From Thermicanus aegyptius DSM 12793 (GTDB lineage: Bacteria; Bacillota; Bacilli; Thermicanales; Thermicanaceae), in the NCBI RefSeq assembly GCF_000510645.1, contig NZ_KI783301.1, positions 1,898,420 to 1,962,419 on the forward strand: 64,000 bases of DNA, written 5' to 3'. The notes under the pieces were generated by a model that searched no databases, was not told the origin of the DNA, and saw nothing but the letters and a program-made list of their open reading frames with translations. The translations under genes and the position numbers were made by a program. Each line of letters begins with the position of its first letter. Positions within the stretch are counted from its first letter, which is position 1. Positions 44,319 to 64,000 of the stretch are shown one piece after another.

Positions 44319-44474
44319 TCACTTCACACGATCTCTTTTCAGCACATCGATTCCAAATTCCCGCAGCATCCGGGCAAACAGTGGGAGGGGGAGTCCTACG
44401 ACGGTATAATAGTCGCCATGGATCCATTCAATCAGCGTCGCTCCCAACCCTTGAATGGCATAGGATCCTGCTTT
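44319..44474 (-). pseudogene. maf: 3' remnant of maf (nucleotide pyrophosphatase), split by the element
   Basis: The minus strand from about 44474 encodes [12 protein letters not shown], then [20 protein letters not shown] and FGI, ending in TGA at 44319-44321. These ~50 residues are the C-terminal end of Maf/YhdE-family nucleotide pyrophosphatases, which read (D)KAGAYGIQG...GDYYNVVGLP. No start or N-terminal part is present: homology breaks at codon KAG (44472-44474), exactly where the serine recombinase gene begins to look foreign. The 5' part of maf should lie at the other end of the element, outside this window. Position before radC matches the usual maf-radC-mreB order. Confidence 0.88.
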
Positions 44475-46273
44475 GTAGTGCTAAATGGTTCTTTTAAGGG
44501 GTGAAAACCACCATTTATTGACATTACCAAAGCAGAATGTCCCGCTTTATTCTCCATAGCTACAATTGATACGAATGATTTCGTCACAGCCCCTGCCTTG
44601 TAGGTAACGGTGGCTTTGTTGTCCCCACCACCGGAACCATCTGGATCATCACCTCCATCGTAATGAAGTAATTGCTCAATATTGGCTTTCAAGTATATTG
44701 TAGGTTCCCCATCTTTACTAACGATTATTTTGTCAATAAGGATCTCAAGGTCTTTACGATTTAGTGTATCCTTTGCTATGATATCATCAAATACTTGAAG
44801 TGCCGTTCTTGCGCCTTCCTTGAACATACTCGACTTCTCTCTAACAGCGGTCAATTCCTCAATCTGCTTTGAAACAGTACTAATATGTTGGCGTTTTTCT
44901 GCTTCTAGCTCAGCGTAGGTTTCAGAGATCATATCCTCCATGTCAGGATTTTTGGCAATGTCCTTAATTTTTTGCGACAATGTAACTTTGAGTTCATCTG
45001 AAAGTTGCTGAAGTTCTTTATTTAACCTCTTTAAGGATACCTCAAAATTATCTTCTCGTTCAACACGATCTTTCAATTTAGCATCAAACGCCGCGATTGC
45101 ACTTGATAACTTTTCTCGAAGCACAGTAAGATGGGCTTTAATTGCAAGCACAAGAGTACGATCTAAGATGTAGTGCGTTGAACAAGCAATTTTACCGACT
45201 CTCCTATAAGTCCCACAGATGTAGGACTTATGTTTGCCCTCCTTGTTAAGAGCAACCATACCATGACCACAATCAGCGCATTTCAGAAACCCCGAGAAAA
45301 GATTTATATGTTTATGACCAGTACCTCTATAGTTTCCATCTAAACGCTTATTGGCTATTGTTTGAGCTAACTCAAAATCTTCTTTACTTATAATCGCTTC
45401 ATGATTGTTTTCAAAGACATATTGCTTAGCTGGATCAACTTTTGACGCTCTACCATTAATCTCACTAAGTAGGAACTTTCCTTGTCTAAGTGTTCCGATA
45501 TAAAAATCATTTCTGATGATTCGTTGAACCATTCTTTGAACCCAAACATTTGTAACACTCTTCTTATATACTTTACCCGCTTCAATCTTCTCACGCTGTA
45601 TTATCATTGAAGGAGTTGGAATCTCATTTTCAGTCAGGTAAATACATATCTTCCTATAACCATACCCTTGCAAATACATATCAAAAATTTTTCTAACAAC
45701 CCAAGCTGTTTCTTCATCAATAATAATCTTCTTACGATCCATTGGATCTCGCTTATAACCATATGGGACTGGAGCTAAAAATACGCCATCTTTCATTTTT
45801 GTCCTAATATTGTCTTTGATCTTTTTACTTATATCCTTAACATACCTTTCATTATACCACGTTTTTATACCAAGAATCGAATCATCGTCTTTCTCTGAAT
45901 CATAATTGTCACTAATCAATATTAACCGGACACCTAGACGTTTCATGTCTTCAAGAAAAAGCAAGGTCAATGCATTATGTCTACCAATACGAGATAAGTC
46001 CTTGGTTGCCAGAATAACTTTATACCCATTCTCAATAGCTATATTAATTTCCTTTAACATACGATTAAAATCAGGTCTATCAAAGGTATATCCACTTACG
46101 TTATCATCTTCAAACATTACAATATTCGAAGAAGAGTCCTTAAACACTTCTGCAAAGTAATTTTTTATCAATTTCTTCTGCGCAATAATTGTCGCATAGT
46201 TCGACCTATCTTCATCTCGGCTGATGCGTGAATAACCGAAATATAGAGTCCTGCTTCCAATATTTTGAACCAT
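44432..46273 (-). CDS. Large serine recombinase (integrase)
   Basis: About 613 aa. The N-terminal resolvase domain has the catalytic serine Ser18 in [12 protein letters not shown] and the helix-D arginine region [10 protein letters not shown]; then a recombinase domain ([20 protein letters not shown]), a zinc-ribbon ([18 protein letters not shown] ... [10 protein letters not shown]), and a coiled coil (~385-500). It integrates and, with a directionality factor, excises the element. ATG 46273 follows GAGGTG. The last ~14 codons (from about 44474 down to the stop at 44432) are read from host maf DNA in another frame, so the free circular form must encode a different C-terminus. Confidence 0.93.
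44465..44485. other. Left attachment junction (attL) of the element
   Basis: The change from maf to element sequence falls at about 44472-44477 (TCCTGCTTTGTAGTGC on the plus strand). Serine recombinases swap strands at a central dinucleotide in a short core; which two bases it is cannot be told without the other junction or an empty maf site. Confidence 0.6.
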
Positions 46274-46310
46274 TGTTCTATACACCTCATTCCAAATTAA
46301 GTAGTGCTTA

Positions 46311-46964: not shown

Positions 46965-47540
46965 TCAAGTCACCAACACTAAATTATCTCTGATAACAGT
47001 TACCTCAATTTTGCAGAAAGAATATTTTTCATGGGAGTCATCCGTTACATATGCATTAAGGATGCCTTGTTGAGCCTCAAAAAGTGTTTGATCAATATAA
47101 TTTTGAATTGTTTCTTGACGAGTACTTCCTTCATATCCCTCTTCATAAAGTGCTTCTTCATAAATATTTGTCGGAACGCAAAGATAACATTTCTTCGAGA
47201 TTAACTTATCAAAAACATATGTAGGATACTCACTCGAAATGTCGATTTCCTTTCCGTCCATATCAATTGAAAGCAAGATGTGATACACAAGTTGTCCTTG
47301 TTCCAGCAAATCAGAAATTACCTCAAAATCCTGTTCAGTTGGTTCGGATTGAAAAATCTTATTGTAATGAATGTAGTTCGTCCTAAGAACACGACCTTCT
47401 TTGAAGAATTCAATGATACTCTCTTTTATCCCGAAAATTCTCATGATATCCTCAGCCAGTCTTTGACTTCTCGTGACAAAAGGTATTATTTTCCTGCTTC
47501 TGACTACCCTCGGTTCAACTTTTCCATTATCGTCCGCCAT
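46965..47540 (-). CDS. Orphan protein A, unknown function, paralogue of the gene at 48367-48975
   Basis: 191 aa, no signal peptide or membrane span. A central stretch SQRLAEDIMRIFGIKESIIE, then F-F-K-E-G-x-V-L and EQDFEVISDLLEQGQLVYHI aligns with the orphan protein at 48367: (L-A-x-x-x-M-x-I-x-G-I-x-E-x-x-I-x-(W/F)-F), a T-E-x-(D)-x-E-(V/I)-I-x-(D/E)-L-x-x-x-G-x-x-V-Y-x-(I/V)-L-L-S motif and a following Y-x-Y-V-type strand. I recognise no family. Start ATG 47540 follows GAAGGAG. It has its own terminator, so it is a single-gene unit. Confidence 0.8.
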   Translation of the reverse strand: MADDNGKVEPRVVRSRKIIPFVTRSQRLAEDIMRIFGIKESIIEFFKEGRVLRTNYIHYNKIFQSEPTEQDFEVISDLLEQGQLVYHILLSIDMDGKEIDISSEYPTYVFDKLISKKCYLCVPTNIYEEALYEEGYEGSTRQETIQNYIDQTLFEAQQGILNAYVTDDSHEKYSFCKIEVTVIRDNLVLVT

Positions 47541-48366: not shown

Positions 48367-48975
48367 TTAATTGATTCTTACTGGAAGTCCATCGGATGCT
48401 ATACAAATCGCTTTAATAAATCTTTGGCTTTTAACAATACTTTTCTCGTCAATTATAACCTCATATCCATTTACTCCAAAGTCATGAGCATCATTTATAA
48501 CCTCAATCATATTATTCAACACTGGAGAAACATCAGTCTCTTCTTCATAAAATCCGCATTCCTCAGTGAAATCAGTTGTAACATAGAGATAAGTAAGTTT
48601 ACTATCAGTTCCCGTTTCGTGGTACACCTTACTTAATAAAACTTGATAAACCTCATAACCTTTACTTCGTAACTCTGCAATAATCTCCTTATCTTCTTCT
48701 GTCAAAAAGGGGACTTCCATAATATTGCAATCTGTTACAACACTCTTCGGAATATTTCCATTATCAAACCACTTAATCAAATCTTCGTTAATACCGATTA
48801 TCTTCATTAAAGCTTTTGCTAGTTCCTTACTACAAGTCGATTTATCCACATTGGGATTTTTCTTAAACAATTCAATAAATGCCACTAAAGCTTCAAGATG
48901 CGCTTTTGCCCTTCTTTTATTCTCCGGACTCAATCCTTCATGCAACTCTTCGAAATTCTCCAACTCATAAATCAT
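48367..48975 (-). CDS. Orphan protein B, paralogue of the gene at 46965-47540
   Basis: 202 aa, soluble. A helical N-terminus (ELHEGLSPENKRRAKAHLEA) is followed by CSKELAKALMKIIGINEDLI-K-W-F-D-N-G-N and EEDKEIIAELRSKGYEVYQV-L-L-S, which align with orphan protein A. The second half (YLYVTTDFTEECGFYEEE) is less alike. Start ATG 48975 follows AGGAGG. No recognised family; own terminator downstream. Confidence 0.8.
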   Translation of the reverse strand: MIYELENFEELHEGLSPENKRRAKAHLEALVAFIELFKKNPNVDKSTCSKELAKALMKIIGINEDLIKWFDNGNIPKSVVTDCNIMEVPFLTEEDKEIIAELRSKGYEVYQVLLSKVYHETGTDSKLTYLYVTTDFTEECGFYEEETDVSPVLNNMIEVINDAHDFGVNGYEVIIDEKSIVKSQRFIKAICIASDGLPVRIN

Positions 48976-49192: not shown

Positions 49193-49537
49193 CTAGGGAC
49201 GAATTCCGATCCCTTTTACATGGTAATTCCCGTCAATCTTTACTTCCTCAAGGTCAGTGATTCCATTATCCTTAAGAACTTTCTTAAATAAATCCCAAAA
49301 TCTTGTTGCGCCAATCGATTTCATGTTATCGAAGCCATTTGCTTCTGCCCATTTACAAAAATCTTTTCTAAAGCTGGATCGAAGGGTAGGGTATATCGTT
49401 GGATCGATAATCACTTGTTCGTTAAAATATTCAGCTATCGGGTTTAACCTTCCCTCATATTCTTCCAACGCCCGCCTACAAGCCTTGCTCTCCGTAAGAT
49501 TAAAATTATTATTAATTAATCGGGTCAAGCCACGCAA
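49193..49537 (-). pseudogene. C-terminal fragment of D5-type primase/helicase
   Basis: The frame reads RGLTRLINNNFNLTESKACR and about 95 further residues (EEYEGRLNPIAEYFNEQVII ...) to the stop at 49193. It begins where the gene at 51053-52476 breaks: both sides share ALRGLTRLINN. Joining 51053-52476 to this piece restores a continuous protein of about 585 aa. The tail resembles the winged-helix (phage-primase C-terminal, 'virulence-associated E/P4 wHTH') end of such helicases. The interruption is the IS4-family insertion between 49.5 and 51.05 kb. Confidence 0.85.
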
Positions 49538-49696
49538 AGCAAACTACGCAATTCCCGGCAATCTTGCAGTAGTTTAGTTTCAGCGACTTATCCAGTAACT
49601 TACCCTTCTTCTGGCTCTTAGCACCTTTCAACTTTTATAAAATTGAAAGAATGAATTGAAATCACGGCCAAACATCGAAAATCATTCATATCAATT
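49509..49696. repeat. Imperfect copy of primase DNA on the left side of the IS
   Basis: TTATTAATTAATCGGGTCAAGCCACGCAAAGCAAAC (49509 on) repeats exactly at 51053 on. Alignment then goes on to about 49696/51255, but the left copy has a series of single-base deletions and swaps: CAATCTTG for CAATTCTTG, TAGTTTCAGC for TAGTTATCAGC, TCCAGTAAC for TCCATGTAAC, ACCCTTC for ACACCTTC. A normal IS insertion duplicates about 8-14 bp, not ~190 bp. See findings. Confidence 0.85.
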
Positions 49697-51052
49697 GTTA
49701 CAAAAAACTCTTCGGTACTGAACAGTATAAGCAGCAACTTTCCTCTGTTTTTTCACATCTTAAAGTGGGCGAACTTTTGCGAAAGGCCGGTATCCGCAAG
49801 GCCTCTGGCATTTCCAGTTTTGCTGTTTTTCAAATCATCTTTCTGCTGGTCTTCCAAGGACGCAATCTATTTCGGTTACTAGGAAGCGGGAGAACGGAAT
49901 CTCTCCCCGGAAAAGATGTGGTTTATCGATTCCTTAATGAAACCCGTTTTAACTGGAGACGCTTTTTGCAATCCTTAAGTCTTAGGATTGTATCTGGCTT
50001 TGAGAAACTCATCTCCTCCCATCGCATCCGCGTTTTTATCATCGATGACTCTGTCTTGCGCCGGGAACGGAGCAAAAAGGTAGAACTGTTGGCAAAAGTC
50101 TTTGATCATGTTTCGGGACATTTCGTTCGGGGATATAACCTATTAACGCTGGGCTGGTCTGATGGGTATAGTTTTGCGCCGATCGATTTTACCTTGATGA
50201 GTTCTGCAAAAGCTTCAAACCGCCTTATGGAAATGCGTGAGGACTTAGACAAGCGCTCCAGTGGCTATAAGCGGCGGAAAGAAGCCGTGATGCACAAACC
50301 GGATGCGGCTATACAAATGCTTGACCGAGCACTCAAAGCCGGATTTACAGCGGACTACGTACTCATGGACAGTTGGTTTACCCACGAACCTCTTCTTCAG
50401 GAGATCATGAGCAAAGGTCTTCACGTCATTGGAATGGTTAAAGCGCTTAAACAGCGGTATATATTCAAAGGGAAGAAAGTAGGTTTGCATGAACTTTTTG
50501 AGATGATTCCTAAAAATCCAAAAGCAGAGATTCAAGGCTCTGTTATGGTTAAGACGCCTCAAGGCTTATCGCTTAAGATCGTCTTCGTCCAGAATCGGAA
50601 CAACCGGAGAGAATGGCTCGCGATTTTGACAACAGACCTCTCCCTAGAGAATGCTGAAATCGTAAGGATTTATGGCATGCGCTGGAGCATTGAGACTTTC
50701 TTTAAAATGGCAAAATCGTATTTGAAATTAGGTTCTGAATTCCAAGGCCGCTCTTTTGACCTGATGATAAGCCATACAACCATTGTTTTTTCCCGTTATC
50801 TCGTTCTTGAGTGGGAACGAAGGCAAAATACAGATGAGCGATCCTTCGGAGGGATGTTTTATCTTTTTGCTGATGAAGTAACGAATATAGACTTAAAAAC
50901 GGCATTACGTCAGTTAATGGCTTTTGTTCAAGAGTTGCTCAAGAATCAACCGAAGGAAAGCACCGCTCTGCTATGTCAATTACAGAAGTGGATTAGCGAA
51001 TTGCCCGGTTATATCAAGCGTTTATTCGTAATTCCGGGGTGCGAAAGTTGAG
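49697..51052 (+). mobile_element. IS4-family insertion sequence in the primase gene
   Basis: Contains one transposase gene and ends at its right side with GGGGTGCGAAAGTTGAG directly before the primase sequence at 51053. The expected left inverted repeat (CTCAACTTTCGCACCCC) is not found near 49697, so the left end is missing, altered or misassembled. A 12-bp shared TTATTAATTAAT at 49509 and 51053 fits an IS4-size target duplication. Confidence 0.8.
49765..51051 (+). CDS. IS4-family DDE transposase
   Basis: At least 428 aa. The DDE residues are visible: first Asp in FIIDDSVLRRE, second in VLMDSWFTHEP, and Glu in the IS4 signature Y-(2)-R-(3)-E-(6)-K (IYGMRWSIETFFKMAK). In-frame codons upstream of GTG 49765 (LFGTEQYKQQLSSVFSHLK) also look coding, and one extra A in the run at 49702-49707 may have cut off the true N-terminus. 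Opposite in direction to the primase it interrupts. Activity of this copy is uncertain. Confidence 0.88.
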   Translation: MGELLRKAGIRKASGISSFAVFQIIFLLVFQGRNLFRLLGSGRTESLPGKDVVYRFLNETRFNWRRFLQSLSLRIVSGFEKLISSHRIRVFIIDDSVLRRERSKKVELLAKVFDHVSGHFVRGYNLLTLGWSDGYSFAPIDFTLMSSAKASNRLMEMREDLDKRSSGYKRRKEAVMHKPDAAIQMLDRALKAGFTADYVLMDSWFTHEPLLQEIMSKGLHVIGMVKALKQRYIFKGKKVGLHELFEMIPKNPKAEIQGSVMVKTPQGLSLKIVFVQNRNNRREWLAILTTDLSLENAEIVRIYGMRWSIETFFKMAKSYLKLGSEFQGRSFDLMISHTTIVFSRYLVLEWERRQNTDERSFGGMFYLFADEVTNIDLKTALRQLMAFVQELLKNQPKESTALLCQLQKWISELPGYIKRLFVIPGCES

Positions 51053-52476
51053 TTATTAATTAATCGGGTCAAGCCACGCAAAGCAAACATCGCAATTCCC
51101 GGCAATTCTTGCAGTAGTTTAGTTATCAGCGACTTATCCATGTAACTTACACCTTCTTCTGGCTCTTGACCGGCTTTCAACTCTTTATAAATCTTATTGA
51201 AAGGAATGATTAGAAATCTACGGAAATAACCATTCGATAAATCATTCGAATCCATCATTTGATTCAATAAAACTATTGACTTAGCGAACAGAACCGTATT
51301 TACTGGAGCATGGTACTTGATATTCACTTCCACTGCATCACCGCTTGTTATAACTTTAAAATTTTGAGTCCCGAATTTACGGTCAAATTCGTTTTCAGTT
51401 GAGATGTTTGCCAACTTGTTCAGTAGACTCTGCATACCAAAACTACCACTCAAATTATTTAAAGCGACATTTGATACGTTCTGGGTGCCAAGCATTTGTC
51501 TAATCACTTCGGCTAAAACACTCTTTCCATTCGACCCAACACCAAAGAAGAAGAACGCCATCTGAATCTTAATTTCAGGTAAGAAGCAATAACCCATAAT
51601 TTCTTGAATCAAGTTCACACGTTCCTCATCACCCTCAAACACGTCGTGTAAAAAGGCTTCAAAAATGGGGCAAGTAGCATTCACATCGTATTCGTAAGGA
51701 ACTTGAATAGTCGATAAAAAATTAGGGCTATGTTCCGTGAACTCCATCGTATAAAGGTTAAGCATACCGTTCTTGAAATTAATGTAATCCCTACGCGGAT
51801 TCATGGTTTCGACATAAGGAATCTGCCTTTTCAATGCTTTGAAATATTCTCCTTCCCAACTGCCCTCCCAAGAATTAGGTTTGGCTTCGTGAAGGATATT
51901 GTAGCAGAAGCTTTTCAGAACACCTTCCTTGATCTCCTCAAATACCCCATCTTTACGATAAGCAAATATCTGTTCATTATCTAACTGTACAAGTGTCATT
52001 CTCTTTAACATATATGATGCGAACACATTGGGATTTAGTTCAAGCTTCCCCCTTGTTCTCGTTGTTAGCCCACGGTTTTTAAGCATTGTCCGTTTAATAC
52101 CATCTAAAACAGATTTAACCGGACTATCAAATCCACCATTCGATACCTCACCCGTATAACCTAACTTTATAAGTTTATCGTAAGTGGCTGGTTGCGATAG
52201 CTTGGGGCTATTCCATAAATCGCGTGCAAGATCAACTAAATGTTTGGTATGTTCGTTCGAACCTAACGCCGATTCAACATCGTTCATAAATTTTTGACCA
52301 GCCTCACCAAATGGCTTCAGATTCGAAACCAACGCTTCAGTCAATTTCTCATCCAACTTAGCGACATTCTCTAATACCCAAATATAAAATGGTTCTTTCT
52401 TCAAATTATAATCGATGGTCTCGTTAATCGCAGGTCTTGTGAAGTCACTACTAGATTTGATTTGAATATTCAACAT
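51053..52476 (-). pseudogene. D5-type phage primase/helicase, 5' part, disrupted by IS
   Basis: About 470 residues of a superfamily 3 helicase of the D5/P4 alpha type. An N-terminal half leads to a D5_N-like region (PRRDYINFKNGMLNLYTMEF), then Walker A FFFGVGSNGKSVLAEVIRQM, Walker B region TENEFDRKFG, and the sensor motif SIVLLNQMMDSNDLSNGYFR-R. Such proteins load at and unwind the origins of phages, satellites and plasmids. ATG 52476 follows GGGAGG. The reading frame crosses into IS DNA and stops at 51022; the missing end is at 49193-49537. Replication function is probably lost unless the IS-free form coexists. Confidence 0.88.
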
Positions 52477-55491: not shown

Positions 55492-56281
55492 GTGGACATT
55501 CGAACAGAATTTGGTCAAAGGGTTAGGGAACTTCGAGCCAGATGCGGAATGTCACAAGAAATGCTGGCTCATCGAGCGGGGCTGGATCGAACATACATCA
55601 GCGGGGTGGAACGCGGGGAACGAAATATCAGTATCGTCAATATCGAGAAGATCGCGTCAGCACTCTGTGTATCAGTCGAATATCTGTTCTTCAACGAAAG
55701 ATTTTCGACAACCTCTACATATCAACCCAAGGATTTTTGATATACGGTTCAAACAAAGATTTAAATATCATATTGACAGCGAAAAGAAACTACTTGCATT
55801 TCAGGTGAAAGGGTTATTTTCAGATCAACGTGATGTTGATTATCTATCTTCAGTTATCATCGGTGTTTGCACTGCGTTTGAGACAGAAGAATTGAACTTC
55901 TTAGTCGATCATCGGGATATGAAAACACCTGACGGTGAAATTGCCGTTTATTCTCCAGAGATTGCAGAACGTGCAGTTGTATTCCAACAGGAACTTTTAA
56001 AAAACAGTAAATGAGTCGTTGCTTTATGCAATTCGGGATACATGGTTCAGGGTTTGAACCATGTAGCTACACAAAGTGGGATTATCTATAAAGCTACTCA
56101 TCTCTATGGGCAAGATAAAGAAATGGTCGATACGGCTTATGAGCTTCTGGGTATCCACGATAATGAATTAATCAAAACCAAAGCTCAACGAGTTACCCCC
56201 AAGAAGGGCTTGCAAATCCAAACGAAAAAATACCACTTCTTGATTCAACAGAGGTTTACCAATCGCCTTGCATCTGGGTAA
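55492..56281 (+). pseudogene. XRE-family regulator with C-terminal sensor-like domain, broken by two lesions
   Basis: GTG 55492 follows TAGGAGG. The first 60 residues are a Cro/C1 helix-turn-helix (MSQEMLAHRAGLDRTYISGV). At 55733-55738 the frame hits a stop after KDF; removing one T from the GGATTTTTGA run restores KDFDIRFKQRFKYHIDSEKK and about 90 more residues. A second in-frame stop (TGA at about 56012, K-N-S-K-stop) is followed in the same frame by VVALCNSGYMVQGLNHVATQ, where a CGA (Arg) codon would keep the protein going to about 56281. Repaired, it is ~262 aa: HTH plus a domain like those on some Paenibacillus/Bacillus XRE regulators. Either a true pseudogene or sequence errors. Confidence 0.75.
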
Positions 56282-56377: not shown

Positions 56378-57409
56378 TCATTTTCCTTGCGCTAAGGAAT
56401 TGGCAAAGGCTTCTAAATCTTGAACCATAAGATCCGTTCGTCTTTGTATAACTTCTTTGTTAGCCGTTTTTCTGCTTAAGGTCTCACCAAATTCAGAATC
56501 CTTGTCGTATTCATCAATCAGGAATTTTTGCGCCCACTGTCCGAACTCTGCCGCTGATAAATTCTTTTCCTGCGCTTTTCGTGCTGCAACAAAGAGGGAG
56601 GGAACAACCGATTTCTTTAGTCTTTTGAACATTTGCAATGTCCAATCTTGGAAGCCCTCAATCATGTATTCAGCACTTTTTTCAATCTCGCTAACAATCA
56701 CTGGATCAATTGGCGTCTTCCCAATCTCACGCATATACAACTTCATATCCTTGCCGGAAAAAGACATATCTCGTCCAGAAAGAAGGGCGATAACTTGGAC
56801 AACCGTTTTCCGATCAACATACCTCTCGATATCGGCTTTGGTAAAATTGATTCTTTGGAAAAGCTCGGATTCCGTGATGCGTTTCAGAATTGAACGGTTA
56901 TCCTCACCAAGTAGGACTTGAGACTGTTCAATATCCGATAACGGCTTGGTTTGATTAACGCGGTAGAAAATCTCCTCTACTTCCTCAAGGGAATACGATT
57001 CATCGAAAATCGTTACGGAGAAGCTATACCCCATCACTGCTTGCTTGAGGTCTTCAGGCAACTCGCTAAACTTCAAACCTGAAACGGATATGTCTCCGAC
57101 CATCGGAGTGTCATCGGACAAAGCAAAACCGTCATCAACGAATAAAAACAAAGTGTTCAAACGTTGGAGACAATCAACTACATAATAGATGTAATCGGGC
57201 TTACTTGCATTGCTATCCAGAACGTCACCGTTTTTCCAAACCAATAAGTTCGGAATGTAACCATCGGTCAAGACCGTGTGCATTAAGAGGCTTTGCCAAC
57301 TGCGATCCTTTCGACGAACGTATCGACGCTGAAACGGAAGATCAAAATTAATTCGATCTTTCAATTTGAGTAAATTATACGTAGTCCACTGAACTGTTGA
57401 TCTTGCCAA
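56378..57409 (-). CDS. DUF262 (GmrSD N-terminal-like) protein
   Basis: 343 aa. The ParB-like DUF262 fold is indicated by LPFQRRYVRRKDRSWQSLLM (the 'F-Q-R-x-Y-x-W' element), PNLLVWK, and YVVDCLQRLNTLFLFVDDGF, where the family has (I/V)-D-G-Q-Q-R-L-T-T-L; here Asp is kept but G-Q is C-L. No C-terminal HNH (DUF1524) is present, so it resembles the stand-alone or GmrS-like half of type IV restriction systems. DUF262 acts in nucleotide-dependent phage defence (GmrSD, BrxU, SspE) . The changed motif leaves activity open. A ~110-bp gap separates it from the orphan genes upstream. Confidence 0.85.
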   Translation of the reverse strand: MARSTVQWTTYNLLKLKDRINFDLPFQRRYVRRKDRSWQSLLMHTVLTDGYIPNLLVWKNGDVLDSNASKPDYIYYVVDCLQRLNTLFLFVDDGFALSDDTPMVGDISVSGLKFSELPEDLKQAVMGYSFSVTIFDESYSLEEVEEIFYRVNQTKPLSDIEQSQVLLGEDNRSILKRITESELFQRINFTKADIERYVDRKTVVQVIALLSGRDMSFSGKDMKLYMREIGKTPIDPVIVSEIEKSAEYMIEGFQDWTLQMFKRLKKSVVPSLFVAARKAQEKNLSAAEFGQWAQKFLIDEYDKDSEFGETLSRKTANKEVIQRRTDLMVQDLEAFANSLAQGK

Positions 57410-57519
57410 AATTATCCCACCTTTGAGAGGAACTTTAATTAAAAAAACTACTTATTATTTTACCACTTATCCGAGCAATCGTATATTGCGTTTAGCCATC
57501 CAAACAGGAAATCGAAAAA

Positions 57520-57840
57520 TTAAGTAGAATGATACGCTTTGTAGAAGCTGATCCCTTGCTTGACCCCGCTAAAAAACATAAACTCCTTAACGAATAATGA
57601 CTTCCTGTCCATCACTTCCTGCAGGGCAGTTACCAGTTCAAGCTGGTCATCAAACAAGGATTTTTTCAGATCTGCTATAAGCTGCTGCTCACGATGTTGA
57701 TCTTCCTCAGGTACATCTTTATCCCGATTGTCTAAAACGATCAATCTCATCTCATTTAAAAGTGCAGTTCCAATACAAGCAGGTAAACCAATGTCCTCCG
57801 TCAAGGTCTTTTGAGATACATTCCGATAGTGACAGTTCAA
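57520..57840 (-). CDS. Orphan protein, unknown function
   Basis: About 106 aa. I start it at TTG 57840 (M/L-NCHYRNVSQK), which has a perfect AAAGGAGGG eight bases before it; the longer frame to 57927 would overlap the upstream gene in another frame. Contains ALLNEMRLIVLDNRDKDVPE and a helical EEDQHREQQLIADLKKSLFD. Sixteen bases downstream of the 57857 gene, so the two are probably co-transcribed. Function unknown. Confidence 0.65.
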   Translation of the reverse strand: MNCHYRNVSQKTLTEDIGLPACIGTALLNEMRLIVLDNRDKDVPEEDQHREQQLIADLKKSLFDDQLELVTALQEVMDRKSLFVKEFMFFSGVKQGISFYKAYHST

Positions 57841-57856
57841 GAAGAATACCCTCCTT

Positions 57857-58231
57857 TTAACTAATGCTTTCGCATTGTTTGGCAAACTTGATCCCGATCC
57901 TGGCTCCAGCCAGATAGATCCCTTCATACCTTCGAGACATGTTGTCTTGGTTCACTTTACACCAGATCTGCAACTGCTCGTATTGGGAAACGGTCAGGCT
58001 ATCCTTCAGCTGCTTCATGATCTTCGAAAACTGGTCTTCCAAAAGCGAAAAATCATCGGTGGATTTTGCATCAAGCTCAATAACCCGACTATCCTCGAGA
58101 GACTGCCTTATTAAAGCAGGTAATTCGTCCTGATTTTGAGCTTCTTTAGATGGTGACCAAGGCAATGGCTTAAAGCTGTCCAAAGCCAAAATCTTGCCGG
58201 CATGTGAGACACCATTTCCTTGCAATTTCAT
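57857..58231 (-). CDS. Orphan protein, unknown function, partner of 57520 gene
   Basis: 124 aa, helical and acidic; QFSKIMKQLKDSLTVSQYEQ and CKVNQDNMSRRYEGIYLAGA stand out. The C-terminal YEGIYLAGARIGIKFAKQCE looks conserved, but no domain name comes to mind with confidence. ATG 58231 follows AAAGGAGGG. First of a two-gene unit with the 57520 gene. Confidence 0.7.
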   Translation of the reverse strand: MKLQGNGVSHAGKILALDSFKPLPWSPSKEAQNQDELPALIRQSLEDSRVIELDAKSTDDFSLLEDQFSKIMKQLKDSLTVSQYEQLQIWCKVNQDNMSRRYEGIYLAGARIGIKFAKQCESIS

Positions 58232-58319
58232 CCCTCCTTTGCAAATTGTGCTTGTACTTTACCGTAAATATTTAGTAATTGCAAGGAGTTTTATGATTGA
58301 TGGATAGGGGAGGGGAATA

Positions 58320-58360
58320 GAAAAAGCCGTTCGATACCCCTGAAGGGAGGGAACGGCTTT
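58320..58360 (-). terminator. Terminator of the 58391 gene
   Basis: On the minus strand AAAGCCGTTC and GAACGGCTTT are 10-bp arms followed by TTTTC. Confidence 0.88.
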
Positions 58361-58390
58361 AAATTGGGATTAGCGGTTTACCAAAGATGC

Positions 58391-58753
58391 TCAAGATGCT
58401 TGCTCGTTGATGTAATTAATAAACGCGGCAGGCGGTTGCTTCATCATCCCAAGAAGCTCTTTCAATTTAGATAGGGAAGTCGGATTAGCCCACTTCAATT
58501 GCTCGCCAACAAGATCATTTAGAATAGTGACTTTAAACAGCCCACCTTCATCTTCATCATCGTAATCGATGTAGACATCAAGGTCATCCTTTTGAAATCG
58601 AATGCTCTTGTAGAATCCAGAACTCTGCGTGTAGCTGCCGTATTGACCATTGTGATACCCTTTGAAAACAGGCGTAATATGGTTCTCCCTAGCCAAGTCA
58701 GATACCCACTTGTTTACCAACAAAATCATATCTTCCGTTGAAAGCTGAAGCAT
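58391..58753 (-). CDS. Orphan protein, unknown function
   Basis: 120 aa. Contains KGYHNGQYGSYTQSSGFYKS, a very acidic DVYIDYDDEDEGGLFKVTIL and a C-terminal helix. ATG 58753 follows AGGCGATC on the minus strand (GGAGGCG). Its acidic centre recalls anti-restriction or nucleoid-mimic proteins, but that is weak. Monocistronic with a clear terminator. Confidence 0.62.
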   Translation of the reverse strand: MLQLSTEDMILLVNKWVSDLARENHITPVFKGYHNGQYGSYTQSSGFYKSIRFQKDDLDVYIDYDDEDEGGLFKVTILNDLVGEQLKWANPTSLSKLKELLGMMKQPPAAFINYINEQAS

Positions 58754-58936
58754 TAGATCGCCTCCTGATTTTTGCTATGCCTATGTAAATCTGATGGCGA
58801 TCCGGCTCCAAAAAGTAAAAAGGTCAACCCCTAAATACGAAGTCGACCCCATATGGGGGATAAGACATGAAGAACCTTGGTTACTCTTCAATTACTAACC
58901 AATCCAACAGAATCAAGTTGTACTGATTTTAGCGAG

Positions 58937-59773
58937 CTACTCCATAAACTCTTCCTCTCGCTCTTCCGCCATTGATACCCCATAACGACGATATTCATCA
59001 TAAATAACGGTTCCCTCTAGATCAATAATACCAAGGTTCGTTTGACCATTCACTTGATTTTCGAGAGCCGTTAAACTCGGGTGGAAAATAACCCCTTGCT
59101 CCACCCAATAATTCAAGATTGCTGTGACCTCTTTATCAAAATTATAAGAGGACTTCACCCCAAGGACTCGAACATCGAGGTTTTCCCTATACGTGTAGGG
59201 AATTACATAAAGATACACGTAGTTCCCGTTTTGTAAGGCTAACTTACAACCCTTAAAATAAACTCTACGCTTATTTGGAGTTAAAATTAAGGCACACATG
59301 TTTAGACGGTAAACATATTTTCTCGGAAGAATATAGATGTACTTACGTCCAAAACTGGTATCAACGTAATCCACGTACTTAAACCCCTCGGAGGGCTTAT
59401 GCTCCCTTCCATCCACAAATCTTCTCAAACCAATCGAAATCTTACTGACCACCGCTACACAATCATGACTAACTGGAATTTGATCATAAACATAATTACC
59501 CGAACTATCCCGACGAAATGATCCATCCGAAAGAACTTGACGCTTCTTCAGAGTCGTTCGACCCACTAACTGAACTTCTTGCTCATTCAAACGATCAAAA
59601 AACATCTCCGTTACCCCTTTAACGAGAGCCATACGACCCTTCGGAATGCCGTTAATCATAGTATCCAATCGAGGTAATGGCAAATCCGTAATCTTAAATG
59701 AATGTGCCATACTTCTACGACCATTCATCATATCTCTAAACTCTTTCGCAAAGACTGCATCGTTTGTCTGCAT
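58937..59773 (-). CDS. Unknown protein
   Basis: 278 aa, soluble, no motif recognised. N-terminal MNGRRSMAHSFKITDLPLPR, then a beta-rich middle with FGRKYIYILPRKYVYRLNMC and ANKRRVYFKG-like TPNKRRVYFKGCKL, and a very acidic end (AEEREEEFME). Start ATG 59773 behind AAAGAGGTG. A loose hairpin at about 58820-58848 (GGTCGAC ... GTTGACC on the minus strand, with a T-run) may end it. Confidence 0.65.
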   Translation of the reverse strand: MQTNDAVFAKEFRDMMNGRRSMAHSFKITDLPLPRLDTMINGIPKGRMALVKGVTEMFFDRLNEQEVQLVGRTTLKKRQVLSDGSFRRDSSGNYVYDQIPVSHDCVAVVSKISIGLRRFVDGREHKPSEGFKYVDYVDTSFGRKYIYILPRKYVYRLNMCALILTPNKRRVYFKGCKLALQNGNYVYLYVIPYTYRENLDVRVLGVKSSYNFDKEVTAILNYWVEQGVIFHPSLTALENQVNGQTNLGIIDLEGTVIYDEYRRYGVSMAEEREEEFME

Positions 59774-59960
59774 AAAACTCCCACCTCTTTATAAAAGAAG
59801 GACTTTAATCACTAAATATATTAATTTATGAAGAAAAATATAATAGGCTCCGTTCAAAGCTTTGTGGGTATACCCCCAAAAGAATGTAAATTTGAGGACG
59901 CATTGTGATCACCAACTCAATTACCTTCGAAAAGAGTTACCTCATAAAGGTATTTACGAG

Positions 59961-60575
59961 CTATTTTATAAATACGATATAGACCTTGTCCAACGTCAGC
60001 GGCTGATCTTTCTCGTAAATCGTTACCGTGTCTTTCAAGTCTGCAGGTAAATTCTTAATTAAGTGCTGCGCGGCGGATAAAGTATGGTCGCCAAAGTCAT
60101 AGATCACCAAAAATTTATAAGCTTCGGTCGGATCAAGCGACTTCATTTTGGTTTTGCCTGTAAGCAACCCCTTAATATCATCAATGATACCCCTTTTCTG
60201 GTTGGAACCAAATACGTAACCGTTATTAATCGGTTTATTACATTTGATCTCGGCTACGATCTTTATATCTCCGATGACCATTAGATCATAACCATTATTG
60301 CTTGGCTTGGTGTTAAGCACCTGATCCAAGTAAACCTGATATTTCTCCTTAACGAAAGGGAATCCGTCGCTAAGCCAGTCAAGGAAGCGAATCGTTGTCT
60401 TGTAAGTAAGGATGTTATGTATGTCTTTCAGAGTGGTCTTGATGTCCTCGAAATCCTCAACTGATAGCCTGGAATAGTAATCGTTGTTACTGCCGGTTAT
60501 TTTGTCCGCGATGAATCGGTTGAAGCCTTCTTTCAGTTCGGTTTCCCGATTATATGGCTGGCTCATGAATAACAA
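59961..60575 (-). CDS. Putative PD-(D/E)XK nuclease-fold protein
   Basis: 204 aa. The motif YDLMVIGDIKIVAEIKCNKP fits a PD-(D/E)XK core: an Asp at the start of a strand, then E-I-K (D-x(10)-E-x-K). This fold occurs in restriction enzymes and other DNA-cutting proteins; the first-helix Glu (TELKEGF) would complete it. Start ATG 60575; RBS GGGGTTG. It follows hsdS on the same strand with a terminator between them (60672-60705), so it is a separate unit. Could be a companion nuclease or a stand-alone defence gene. Confidence 0.6.
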   Translation of the reverse strand: MLFMSQPYNRETELKEGFNRFIADKITGSNNDYYSRLSVEDFEDIKTTLKDIHNILTYKTTIRFLDWLSDGFPFVKEKYQVYLDQVLNTKPSNNGYDLMVIGDIKIVAEIKCNKPINNGYVFGSNQKRGIIDDIKGLLTGKTKMKSLDPTEAYKFLVIYDFGDHTLSAAQHLIKNLPADLKDTVTIYEKDQPLTLDKVYIVFIK

Positions 60576-60671
60576 CCCCCAATGATCAAATTAAGACCAT
60601 TATACAAGAGAAGCAAATTTCCTGTAAGTAATTGGGGTTTGTGACTGGAGTGTTGTGAGTCGTAGTATAGT

Positions 60672-60705
60672 TAAAAAAGATCGACCCCTATTGAGATCGA
60701 TCTTT
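60672..60705 (-). terminator. Terminator after hsdS
   Basis: On the minus strand AAAGATCGATCTC and ... TCGATCTTT form a hairpin (arms AAAGATCGA/TCGATCTTT) followed by TTTAACT, 42 bp past the hsdS stop. Confidence 0.8.
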
Positions 60706-60746
60706 CTTTAAAAACGTTTGACTTCCACCAATACCGTTTCCTGATA

Positions 60747-61922
60747 TCAAACGAACATCTGCTGCAACAAACCATTTTTCAACTGTATGAGGGATTCGAA
60801 TTTCGATTCTTCCTTGGAGATTTTTTCTTCTAAGGTAAACAGAAACGAAGCAATCTTCTTCTGTTCCTCAATCGAAGGCAGAGGGATCTCAAGACTTCTG
60901 ATGGAATCCCACTCAGTTCTCGGCATCTTGGAACCTGACGATATATTCGCTGCCTGTTGAAAAGTATCACTTTGAATTATAAAATACAAAAATTCATTAG
61001 TAATTCTAGGACTTTTTGATGTCAAAACCCAAATTTCTGATGAGCAAATCCCATCAAATGTTGCATACCAATACTTCTTAAGGTACGGTCGTAATTTCCC
61101 AAATAAAACGGAGCCTTTAGCAAACTCATTTTTAGTACTTTGTTGCTCCTGTGATAAGTAAAAACCGTTGATTCGCCCCCTATTACCGACAATATTCTCC
61201 AGTTCAATACATGGCGCGTTCGTCTTACTTTGTGGAATGATCTTATTAGAATTGTTTGTGGCAACTTGCTCGAACAATTCACTGTCCCATTCAGGAAAAT
61301 CCTGTCCATTCTCATCTTTGAACCGAATTTCCTGCGAGAAAATCTTCTGGAGCATACCTTTCTTGAACAACTCCAACTGCTCGATCTTCTCCTGTTGCTT
61401 CTCGATCTTTTGATCGAGGAGGGAGAAGAAAGAAGCGATTTTTTGTTGTTCTTCGATGCTTGGTAAATGTATTTTTGTATCCAACAAATCTTTGTTATAC
61501 AACCTCTTAACAGTTCCGCCTTCCAATTTACTCCAAACAATCGTCTGGTAGTAATAATAGAGATATTTGTTTAATAATCTATCACTTGTAACGTTTAACC
61601 AAACAATATTTGAATCTTGGTAATAGGCATCCTCACCCTTATATTCAACAATTCTCCCGATTGTTCCAGCTGCCGATATCAGAATATCCCCTTTTTTGGG
61701 ATAAGGATACTTTTCTTTGTACTCAGAAAATAACTTTCTAGAAATAAAAGCGTCCGGAGTTCTACCAAACGTCCCTATTTTATAAAATGGAACCTCTCCA
61801 GTACTACTTGTTTGGTGTTCAAATATCCGTCTACACATTAAAACCGTCCCTAGATCTCCAAGTGTAGCATTATCCCATTCATCTTCAAACCCTTTAAATC
61901 TTAACTTTGGAACACAAGCCAT
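60747..61922 (-). CDS. hsdS: Type I restriction-modification specificity subunit HsdS
   Basis: 391 aa. Two target recognition domains (about 1-150 and 205-345), each followed by a conserved helical spacer: LPSIEEQQKIASFFSLLDQK (150s) and LPSIEEQKKIASFLFTLEEK (end). Each domain reads half of a bipartite DNA site. It directs both methylation and cleavage by the HsdMR complex. Starts 3 bp after hsdM, so the two are co-translated. The recognised sequence cannot be told by reading. Confidence 0.93.
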   Translation of the reverse strand: MACVPKLRFKGFEDEWDNATLGDLGTVLMCRRIFEHQTSSTGEVPFYKIGTFGRTPDAFISRKLFSEYKEKYPYPKKGDILISAAGTIGRIVEYKGEDAYYQDSNIVWLNVTSDRLLNKYLYYYYQTIVWSKLEGGTVKRLYNKDLLDTKIHLPSIEEQQKIASFFSLLDQKIEKQQEKIEQLELFKKGMLQKIFSQEIRFKDENGQDFPEWDSELFEQVATNNSNKIIPQSKTNAPCIELENIVGNRGRINGFYLSQEQQSTKNEFAKGSVLFGKLRPYLKKYWYATFDGICSSEIWVLTSKSPRITNEFLYFIIQSDTFQQAANISSGSKMPRTEWDSIRSLEIPLPSIEEQKKIASFLFTLEEKISKEESKFESLIQLKNGLLQQMFV

Positions 61923-61925
61923 CCT

Positions 61926-63479
61926 CTATTCCCCCAATTCCCTGAGGTACTTTTCAAGCTCAATATCGATTTTAGTAATCTCGGCGTCGATTTCTTTTAG
62001 ACGAGCCTGAATCAAATCCAGATCAACTGGCTCTTCTTTTTCGAAGGTATCTACATAACGTGGGATATTGAGGTTATAATTGTTTTGTCGAATATCCGCT
62101 AGCGATACTGCATTGGAGTACTTTTCAATGGTCTGACGTGTCTTATAGGTTTCTACAATCTTCTCAACATCTTCGTCACGCAAGCGGTTCTGGTTCTTCC
62201 CTTTCTCAAAATCGTTGGAAGCATCAATGAACAGAATATTATCATTCGCTTCTCGGCATTTTTTGAACACCAAAATGCATGTTGGAATCGTTGTCCCGAA
62301 GAAGATATTGGCAGGTAAACCAATCACCGCATCCAAGTAGTTCTTCTCTTCAATCAAGTATTTGCGAATAACCCCTTCAGCCGCGCCGCGAAACAATACC
62401 CCGTGAGGAAGGACAACTGCCATTGTTCCATTATCGTCAAGGTGGTGAATCATATGTTGAACAAAGGCGAAATCAGCTTTGGACTTGGGAGCTAGCTTAC
62501 CATAAGCACTGAAACGCTCGTCTTGCAGGAACTTCTCATCCGCACTCCATTTAGCAGAGTAGGGGGGATTCGCTACTACAGCTTCGAAGCGCATACCAAG
62601 ATGTCGCGGCTCCTCTAAACTATCAGCATTCTGGATGTCAAAATTATGGTAAGACACACCATGCAAAAGCATGTTCATTCGAGCCAAGTTATAAGTAGTT
62701 GAGGTTTTCTCTTGCCCGTAAAACTTCCGTACATTCGCTTCTTTGGCAACCCTCAAGAGCAATGACCCCGAACCACAAGTCGGGTCATACACATTTCTCA
62801 AATCCTTCTTCCCCAATGTCACTATCTTGGCAATGATTTTTGAAACCTGTGGTGGAGTATAGAACTCACCAGCTTTTTTACCCGCATTAGCTGCAAATTG
62901 CCCAATCAAATACTCATATGCGTCTCCCAAAACATCTATGTCCGCATCATTATGCATGAAAGGAATGTCATTAATATTAACCATGACCTTAGCGATCAGC
63001 TTGGAACGAGACTTAACATCACGACCCAATTTTGAGGAACTCAAATCCATATCATCGAACAGATTTTGGAAGTCTTCCTGACTCGCCGCTCCAAGGGTTG
63101 ATTCGGTTACTTTGTTAATTGCTTTCTGTAACATTTCAATGTCAAACTTACCTTGCTCACCTTTACGAATTTCTTCAATCATACTCGAAAACAGGTAATC
63201 GGGCTCGATGACGTAACCTATTTCCTGAATGAGTTGATCTTTTAAGGCGTCACGGTAAGTTTGATCCTTCCAAGCATCCCTGAAAGAAATATTATCTTTT
63301 TCAAGCAGCATGTTAACCCGATCCTCAGTTTTGTCCGATAAGTAACGATAAAAGATCAACCCGAGAATATAGTTTTTGAACTCATAAGCTTCAAGTTGAC
63401 CTCGAAGATCATTCGCCATATCCCAAAGCTTCTTATGTAATTCGGCTTGTTGATGACGCTGCAACTCAGTCGTTGTCAT
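61926..63479 (-). CDS. hsdM: Type I restriction-modification methyltransferase HsdM
   Basis: About 517 aa N6-adenine methyltransferase subunit. N-terminal HsdM domain (LHKKLWDMANDLRGQLEAYE), SAM motif DPTCGSGSLLL, and the catalytic NPPYS in VVANPPYSAKWS; the coiled C-terminus binds HsdS. I use ATG 63479 (MTTTELQRHQ), which follows AGGAGG and overlaps the stop of the gene before it (ATGA), rather than the in-frame start at 63536. HsdR is not in the window. Confidence 0.95.
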   Translation of the reverse strand: MTTTELQRHQQAELHKKLWDMANDLRGQLEAYEFKNYILGLIFYRYLSDKTEDRVNMLLEKDNISFRDAWKDQTYRDALKDQLIQEIGYVIEPDYLFSSMIEEIRKGEQGKFDIEMLQKAINKVTESTLGAASQEDFQNLFDDMDLSSSKLGRDVKSRSKLIAKVMVNINDIPFMHNDADIDVLGDAYEYLIGQFAANAGKKAGEFYTPPQVSKIIAKIVTLGKKDLRNVYDPTCGSGSLLLRVAKEANVRKFYGQEKTSTTYNLARMNMLLHGVSYHNFDIQNADSLEEPRHLGMRFEAVVANPPYSAKWSADEKFLQDERFSAYGKLAPKSKADFAFVQHMIHHLDDNGTMAVVLPHGVLFRGAAEGVIRKYLIEEKNYLDAVIGLPANIFFGTTIPTCILVFKKCREANDNILFIDASNDFEKGKNQNRLRDEDVEKIVETYKTRQTIEKYSNAVSLADIRQNNYNLNIPRYVDTFEKEEPVDLDLIQARLKEIDAEITKIDIELEKYLRELGE

Positions 63480-63997
63480 CTGCTTTCCTCCTCTAGATAC
63501 CCCATTAGTAACTGTTTGATATACTGCTGTTCCCATACCATTCTCTCCTGAAGTAGTCGATTTTTTCGGTGTAATAATCTGTGGATAATACCAATCTTCA
63601 TTTGAACGTCCATAGGTGGCAAAATAATATCTAAAGTCCTAAGCATTTGAATTGATAAGGCTGTTACACTCGAGCCTTGCGTGGCGATCTTTAATTGCCT
63701 GCGACAATCTGGATGCTCGTTAATAAACCACTCCAGATAATCAGGGTGCAACTCGCTTGAAGGTTCAATAATCGCAAAGTTTGATGGAATCAGTTTGCCA
63801 ACATGCTCCTGTTGTAACGCCACTGCCCTTTGTCCAGTCAAACTGATTAAGACTAACCCCTCTTTGGCAAGCGGTAAAGACCCTAAACGATCCTTAGCAA
63901 CATGAATATCTTGCTGGTATTCTGACGATATTGGATCAGGACTCAACCACTCATTCATTTCCTTCAACGTGTAGACTGGAAGCTTGACTGCTTCCAT
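63476..63997 (-). CDS. Half-size HsdS-like specificity protein
   Basis: 173 aa, upstream of hsdM with a 4-nt overlap. It matches one target recognition domain plus conserved spacer of an HsdS: HPDYLEWFINEHPDCRRQLK, then TQGSSVTALSIQMLRTLDII and LPPMDVQMKIGIIHRLLHRK. Full HsdS has two such halves; this protein has one. It may be an accessory specificity half that can dimerise, a control protein, or a decayed gene. Its start, ATG 63997, is within 3 bp of the window's edge, so an upstream part cannot be ruled out. Confidence 0.75.
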   Translation of the reverse strand: MEAVKLPVYTLKEMNEWLSPDPISSEYQQDIHVAKDRLGSLPLAKEGLVLISLTGQRAVALQQEHVGKLIPSNFAIIEPSSELHPDYLEWFINEHPDCRRQLKIATQGSSVTALSIQMLRTLDIILPPMDVQMKIGIIHRLLHRKNRLLQERMVWEQQYIKQLLMGYLEEESR

Positions 63998-64000
63998 TGA

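Follow-up and report, generated by a model that had tools for sequence, protein, structure and literature searches.

A complete type I restriction-modification system, a nuclease-like protein of an unlisted family and probable unrelated passengers in a maf-inserted element of Thermicanus aegyptius

The window analysed here is a 64,000-nucleotide stretch of the single-contig 3.66-Mb genome of Thermicanus aegyptius DSM 12793, and its last 7.6 kb carry type I restriction genes, a nuclease-like protein, a DUF262 protein and, between them, four small genes that a first-pass annotation had left without a family. Both the gene content of the window and the relatives found for it point to the Bacilli. 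The question raised by this locus is whether the small genes at 57520-59773 belong to a new defence module or are passengers in a defence region of a more familiar kind. All of the open reading frames listed by the first-pass annotation are present where it placed them, on the minus strand, and Pfam bore out its assignments of HsdS, HsdM and the DUF262 protein. The cluster consists of the following features, with positions beyond the window given as window-equivalents and loci numbered with the prefix L.

56378-57409, minus strand: stand-alone DUF262 (GmrS-type) protein, 343 aa (PF03235 GmrSD_N, 3.4e-10)
57520-57750, minus strand: 76-aa protein inside a 135-aa ORF (match to L034:5674-5991, itself weakly DUF6809)
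57857-58231, minus strand: 124-aa protein, weakly DUF6809-like (PF20648 0.026, below cut-off; matches in L040 and L034)
58391-58753, minus strand: 120-aa protein (codon score 0.176; ribosome site AGGAGG; no detected relatives)
58937-59773, minus strand: 278-aa protein (codon score 0.222; ribosome site GAGGTGGG; no detected relatives)
59961-60575, minus strand: P204, PD-(D/E)XK-like protein of an unlisted family, 204 aa (conserved motif; predicted topology)
60747-61922, minus strand: HsdS, full specificity subunit with two target domains (PF01420, two stretches, 5.7e-44)
61926-63536, minus strand: HsdM, type I methyltransferase (PF02384 6.7e-112)
63476-64000, continuing to 64066, minus strand: half-size HsdS (S½), 196 aa (weak similarity to full HsdS; copy in P. 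turicensis)
64177-66930 (L003:597-3350): HsdR, 917 aa (HSDR_N, SWI2_SNF2, EcoR124_C)

In type I systems a bipartite site is methylated by HsdM together with HsdS, and the ATP-dependent cleavage of unmethylated DNA is the task of HsdR. Because the cluster runs past the window edge into hsdR, we conclude that the type I system is complete: HsdR, HsdM and HsdS are encoded together, in the order R–S½–M–S. The first-pass description as a defence-type cluster was right. PADLOC agrees with Pfam on the type I proteins, and the P. turicensis S½ matches the PADLOC Specificity_I models (best 4.4e-10). The order R–S½–M recurs in L042, L060, L072 and L073, and S½–M is found in L055 and L056, where the stretch read ended before hsdR. 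A more distant S½–HsdM pair lies in L074-L076 beside a 272-aa protein, which we take to be DUF3800-like; no HsdR or HsdS of this family was seen in L074 and L076, and only distant ones in L075.

A type I locus with a full and a single-domain HsdS has been described as BlihIA in Bacillus licheniformis (PMC12429846), and in a Staphylococcus xylosus locus, as cited in that paper, a full and a half HsdS are both reported to be necessary for methylation. Since such loci have already been described, the arrangement seen here, a complete two-target-domain HsdS and a single-domain HsdS with HsdM and HsdR, is a known one; the likeness is one of gene content. In other loci that have both a full and a half HsdS, the half subunit has been proposed to join the complex or widen its specificity, and the same is probable here. 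Unlike the two described loci, the set here is as a whole the cargo of an element, and a 740-aa gene without a family match diverges from hsdR. This gene (L003:3537-5759, window-equivalent 67117-69339) has no match in Pfam or NCBIfam. Homologues in L042 and L072 are likewise neighbours of hsdR, and the P. polymyxa plasmid p-YT9A has a match of 82% with no hsdMS annotated nearby.

The element that carries the cluster is about 69.6 kb long; it sits next to radC, in the 3' end of maf. Its landmarks, and a second defence unit that it contains, are as follows.

44432-46285, minus strand: large serine recombinase of the element (PF07508 and PF00239), with displaced Maf C-terminal codons behind it
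51022-52476, minus strand: main part of the element's D5-type helicase (DUF5906 and D5_N), the remainder at 49193-49537
55492-56281, plus strand: pseudogene of an Xre-type regulator (tblastn with the intact homologue L027; HTH_3 in a homologue)
78887-80638 (L003:15307-17058): kwaA and kwaB, a Kiwa-type pair of this element that lies beyond the window

The recombinase adjoins radC, and from there it is about 69.6 kb to the next host gene, maf. The junctions between element and host lie near window position 44474 (left) and at about 114096, corresponding to genome (G000) positions 1942893 and 2012515. A large serine recombinase element is recognised by its terminal recombinase gene and by the target gene that it splits, and both are found here, the target being maf. 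The displaced Maf codons stand behind the recombinase, and maf at the far side ends in a different C-terminus, DKAGAYGVQGIGAVFIE... Because the two ends carry two different Maf C-termini, we conclude that insertion takes place in the 3' part of maf and that the element brings a new end for the gene. The far-side maf also holds a second DKAG motif, which suggests a remnant of an earlier insertion. Sister elements, with a recombinase of the same family beside radC, were found in four Paenibacillus-family genomes (L035/L041-L044 from P. turicensis, L036 from P. humicus, L055 and L056), and in each of the four, codons resembling the Maf C-terminus can be read close to the recombinase end. G628 (L029/L030) holds a more distant relative, whose recombinase is a different one. 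The part of the literature covered on serine integrases with maf and on radC-linked elements held no evident description of this element family.

The copy in T. aegyptius is not intact. An IS transposase gene (49765-51051, plus strand) splits the gene of the D5-type helicase (49193-52476), both parts of which match one intact 487-aa homologue, and the helicase gene is intact in the sister elements. The Xre regulator, just outside the reported cluster, carries a frameshift and an in-frame stop. With the regulator a pseudogene and the helicase split by an IS, we conclude that this copy of the element is decaying. The element also encodes three paralogous proteins of about 190-200 aa (46965-47540 and 48367-48975 in the window, and L003:6744-7325), with relatives in L030 and L055. 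In the Kiwa-type pair, KwaB matches PF16162 (1.2e-17) and KwaA matches NCBIfam (2.5e-16, below the curated cut-off) and PADLOC (3.4e-15); it is a separate unit about 15 kb away, amid backbone genes.

Comparison with the P. turicensis element separates the type I genes from the backbone. HsdR, HsdM and S½ are 93%, 90% and 85% identical to their P. turicensis counterparts, and the 740-aa neighbour of hsdR is 87% identical, whereas the backbone is more divergent (recombinase 69%, D5-type helicase 57-63%, a 1843-aa membrane protein 56% and others 24-65%). HsdS is only 32% identical to the P. turicensis HsdS. Because HsdR, S½ and HsdM share 85–93% identity against 24–69% for the shared backbone, the type I system, HsdS excepted, seems to have been exchanged later than the backbone and appears to move on its own, as judged from pairwise identities.

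The DUF262 protein at the other end of the cluster shares its DUF262 (GmrSD_N) domain with GmrSD, BrxU and SspE, in which DUF262 occurs with DUF1524; the 343-aa protein differs from them in having no DUF1524 nuclease domain and in reading DCLQR for DGQQR. In an alignment, four relatives have DGKQR or DGQQR at this place. DGQQR forms the NTP pocket in GmrS (PMC10952713), and the altered motif suggests that the window protein may be weakened or inactive. Assignment to GmrSD type IV restriction was rejected, as only GmrSD_N was found, with DUF1524 missing and the DGQQR motif altered. The protein also matches PADLOC NsnA over most of the profile (4.8e-20), but Menshen was rejected too, with no NsnB or NsnC recognised among the neighbours by Pfam or PADLOC. 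Relatives of about 23-33% identity occur on Bacillales plasmids and in phages, and their neighbours differ in each of the six neighbourhoods read.

The four small genes look to be coding, as judged from codon scores of 0.116-0.222 per codon, compared with 0.095-0.277 for trusted genes of the element, and from plausible ribosome sites before the 278-, 120- and 124-aa genes. The 135-aa ORF (57520-57927) overlaps its neighbour by 71 bp; because of this overlap and the codon score, it probably starts at 57750 and encodes 76 aa. Against the DUF6809 profile, the 124-aa protein scores 15.8 bits, under the Pfam cut-off of 27, and the 135-aa ORF gave no match. The 278-aa protein had no match in the relatives sample, phages, plasmids, viral contigs or genome contigs. 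Together with the 120-aa protein, it was also without a match in plasmids, in 398 genomes of the phylum and in 392 genomes of the sampled family, a result that by itself proves little, although the same family, drawn in a similar way, yielded nine matches to P204. Neither of the two was found in ten genomes that carry P204 or a related element. PHROGs gave nothing below E = 0.019 for any of the small proteins, which do not appear among standard phage replication or packaging proteins.

P204 probably starts at an internal ATG (M4), and none of Pfam, PADLOC, PHROGs and NCBIfam has a family that it matches above cut-off. A first search in viral contigs and plasmids found nothing; relatives came only from whole-genome searches and an alignment scan, which gave 16 distinct loci including the window, and P204 is present in 9 of 396 genomes of one sampled family. 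Three residues, D97, E109 and K111 (D…E-x-K), are invariant in ten aligned homologues and lie on or beside predicted strands 97-101 and 105-111, and in an AlphaFold model (mean pLDDT 72) helices and strands follow one another as they should in a PD-(D/E)XK core. A fold search returned no match at E <= 0.001, with HamA, EcoO109I, Cfr10I and BsmI among the non-significant ones. The first-pass PD-(D/E)XK call is therefore upheld by motif and predicted topology, on which a putative nuclease function rests, and not by any significant profile or fold match. The non-significant match to HamA gave no ground for placing P204 in Hachiman. A weak P204 match in G368 (E 1.4e-4) was set aside as probably a chance one; it lies in the C-terminal part of a helicase that, as read from its sequence, resembles a restriction subunit.

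The neighbours of P204 were counted by hand within the fetched flanks of the 16 loci. Genes of this type I system lie within 10 kb in eight loci (window, L034-L037, L055, L056 and L060), and an Xre regulator is near in nine (L032, L035, L036, L039, L055, L056, L059, L060 and, as the pseudogene, the window). An AlbA_2 protein is near in four (L033, L034, L038 and, as a fragment, L032). The three complete AlbA_2 proteins match the PADLOC candidate PDC-S50 over almost their whole length (4e-141 or better), and their genes abut or overlap that of P204 in L033 and L038; no PDC-S50 gene was seen in the window element. An AbiJ_NTD3-type gene lies less than 3 kb from P204 in L034 and L058. This AbiJ_NTD3-type protein of about 460 aa recurs near P204 or type I genes (L034:4120-5478, L042:15178-16566, L058:11977-13374 and L073:4124-5515); its L034 copy also matches DUF559 weakly, and its L042 copy was grouped with the others by a similar N-terminus and a shared PDC-M01A match. 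In the family sample, four of the nine P204 genomes are also among the nine with a close S½, an overlap that is not independent evidence, because the four are none other than the maf/radC elements and each count comes from its own draw of genomes.

How do these genes belong together? A new module of the small proteins with the DUF262 protein or P204, for example with DUF262 as an NTP-dependent sensor, P204 as the nuclease and the small proteins as regulators, would fit genes that are contiguous, coding and on the same strand, between domains known from defence systems. However, no relatives of the 278- and 120-aa proteins turned up in phages, plasmids, viral contigs, genome contigs or sampled genomes, the other two small proteins have at best weak DUF6809-like ones, and relatives of the DUF262 protein and P204 occur elsewhere without them. 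Nor were the small genes found in genomes whose sister elements carry hsdMS and P204, or seen elsewhere beside DUF262, P204 or hsdMS, with the exception of one DUF6809-like gene in the same cargo region as P204 and hsdR in L034. Gaps of roughly 110-190 bp lie between the genes, and the 278-aa gene is parted from the 120-aa gene by a terminator-like stem of 12 pairs (58850-58820), although the frequency of such stems here does not exceed chance; a promoter scan likewise gave no more than chance. We consider the module, which the first-pass annotation had suggested with the DUF262 or the PD-(D/E)XK-like protein as partner, very improbable, and a module with hsdMS is likewise not supported: the four genes look like unrelated one-off passengers.

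P204 could instead be an accessory subunit of this type I system, such as a second nuclease or a self-protection factor, as its place directly downstream of hsdS and the type I genes near half of its loci might suggest. This seems improbable, although less so than the module, given that in L035, L036, L055 and L056 some 5 kb with other genes part P204 from hsdS, that eight loci have no type I system in view and that its identity (65-82%) does not track that of HsdR (84-93%). The absence of a fixed partner also fits an element-maintenance or selfish mobile nuclease that stands beside defence genes by chance, conserved alone while the neighbours on both sides are replaced from locus to locus. 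We regard this as unlikely, though the most plausible of the three, because P204 is repeatedly paired with the PDC-S50 AlbA_2 gene, abutting or overlapping it in two loci, and restriction and AbiJ_NTD3-type genes are regularly near. Judged from the motif, the model and these neighbours, the likeliest role of P204 is that of a PD-(D/E)XK DNase in the service of defence, working alone or with changing partners. A bolder version, with P204 as effector in a new and modular family of anti-phage nucleases of the Paenibacillus family, acting alone or with AlbA_2 (PDC-S50) and travelling in maf-targeting serine-recombinase elements with type I systems, is tentative and on balance doubtful.

Taken together, we favour, with a probability of roughly 0.7, the reading that this stretch is the defence cargo of the maf-inserted element of about 69.6 kb, a reading in which gene content, element structure and conservation are observed and the biochemical activities are predicted. 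A large serine recombinase would have inserted the element into the 3' end of maf, and the complete type I system (hsdR, half-hsdS, hsdM and hsdS) would be its main working unit. P204 would act as a defence DNase, the DUF262 protein would be a separate GmrS-type passenger with an altered NTP-binding motif, and the four small genes would be unrelated passengers.

We conclude that the region is a routine defence island carried by an integrative element. It contains one nuclease-like protein of an unlisted family; the small genes gave no sign of forming a module, and the evidence argues against their being a recurrent one. In this family of mobile elements the type I system seems to be readily exchanged and its specificity subunit to have been swapped. 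The P204 family is conserved, nuclease-like, absent from the four libraries searched and linked to the listed candidate PDC-S50; if P204 defends, it would be a further effector, one overlooked by finders that rely on these libraries.
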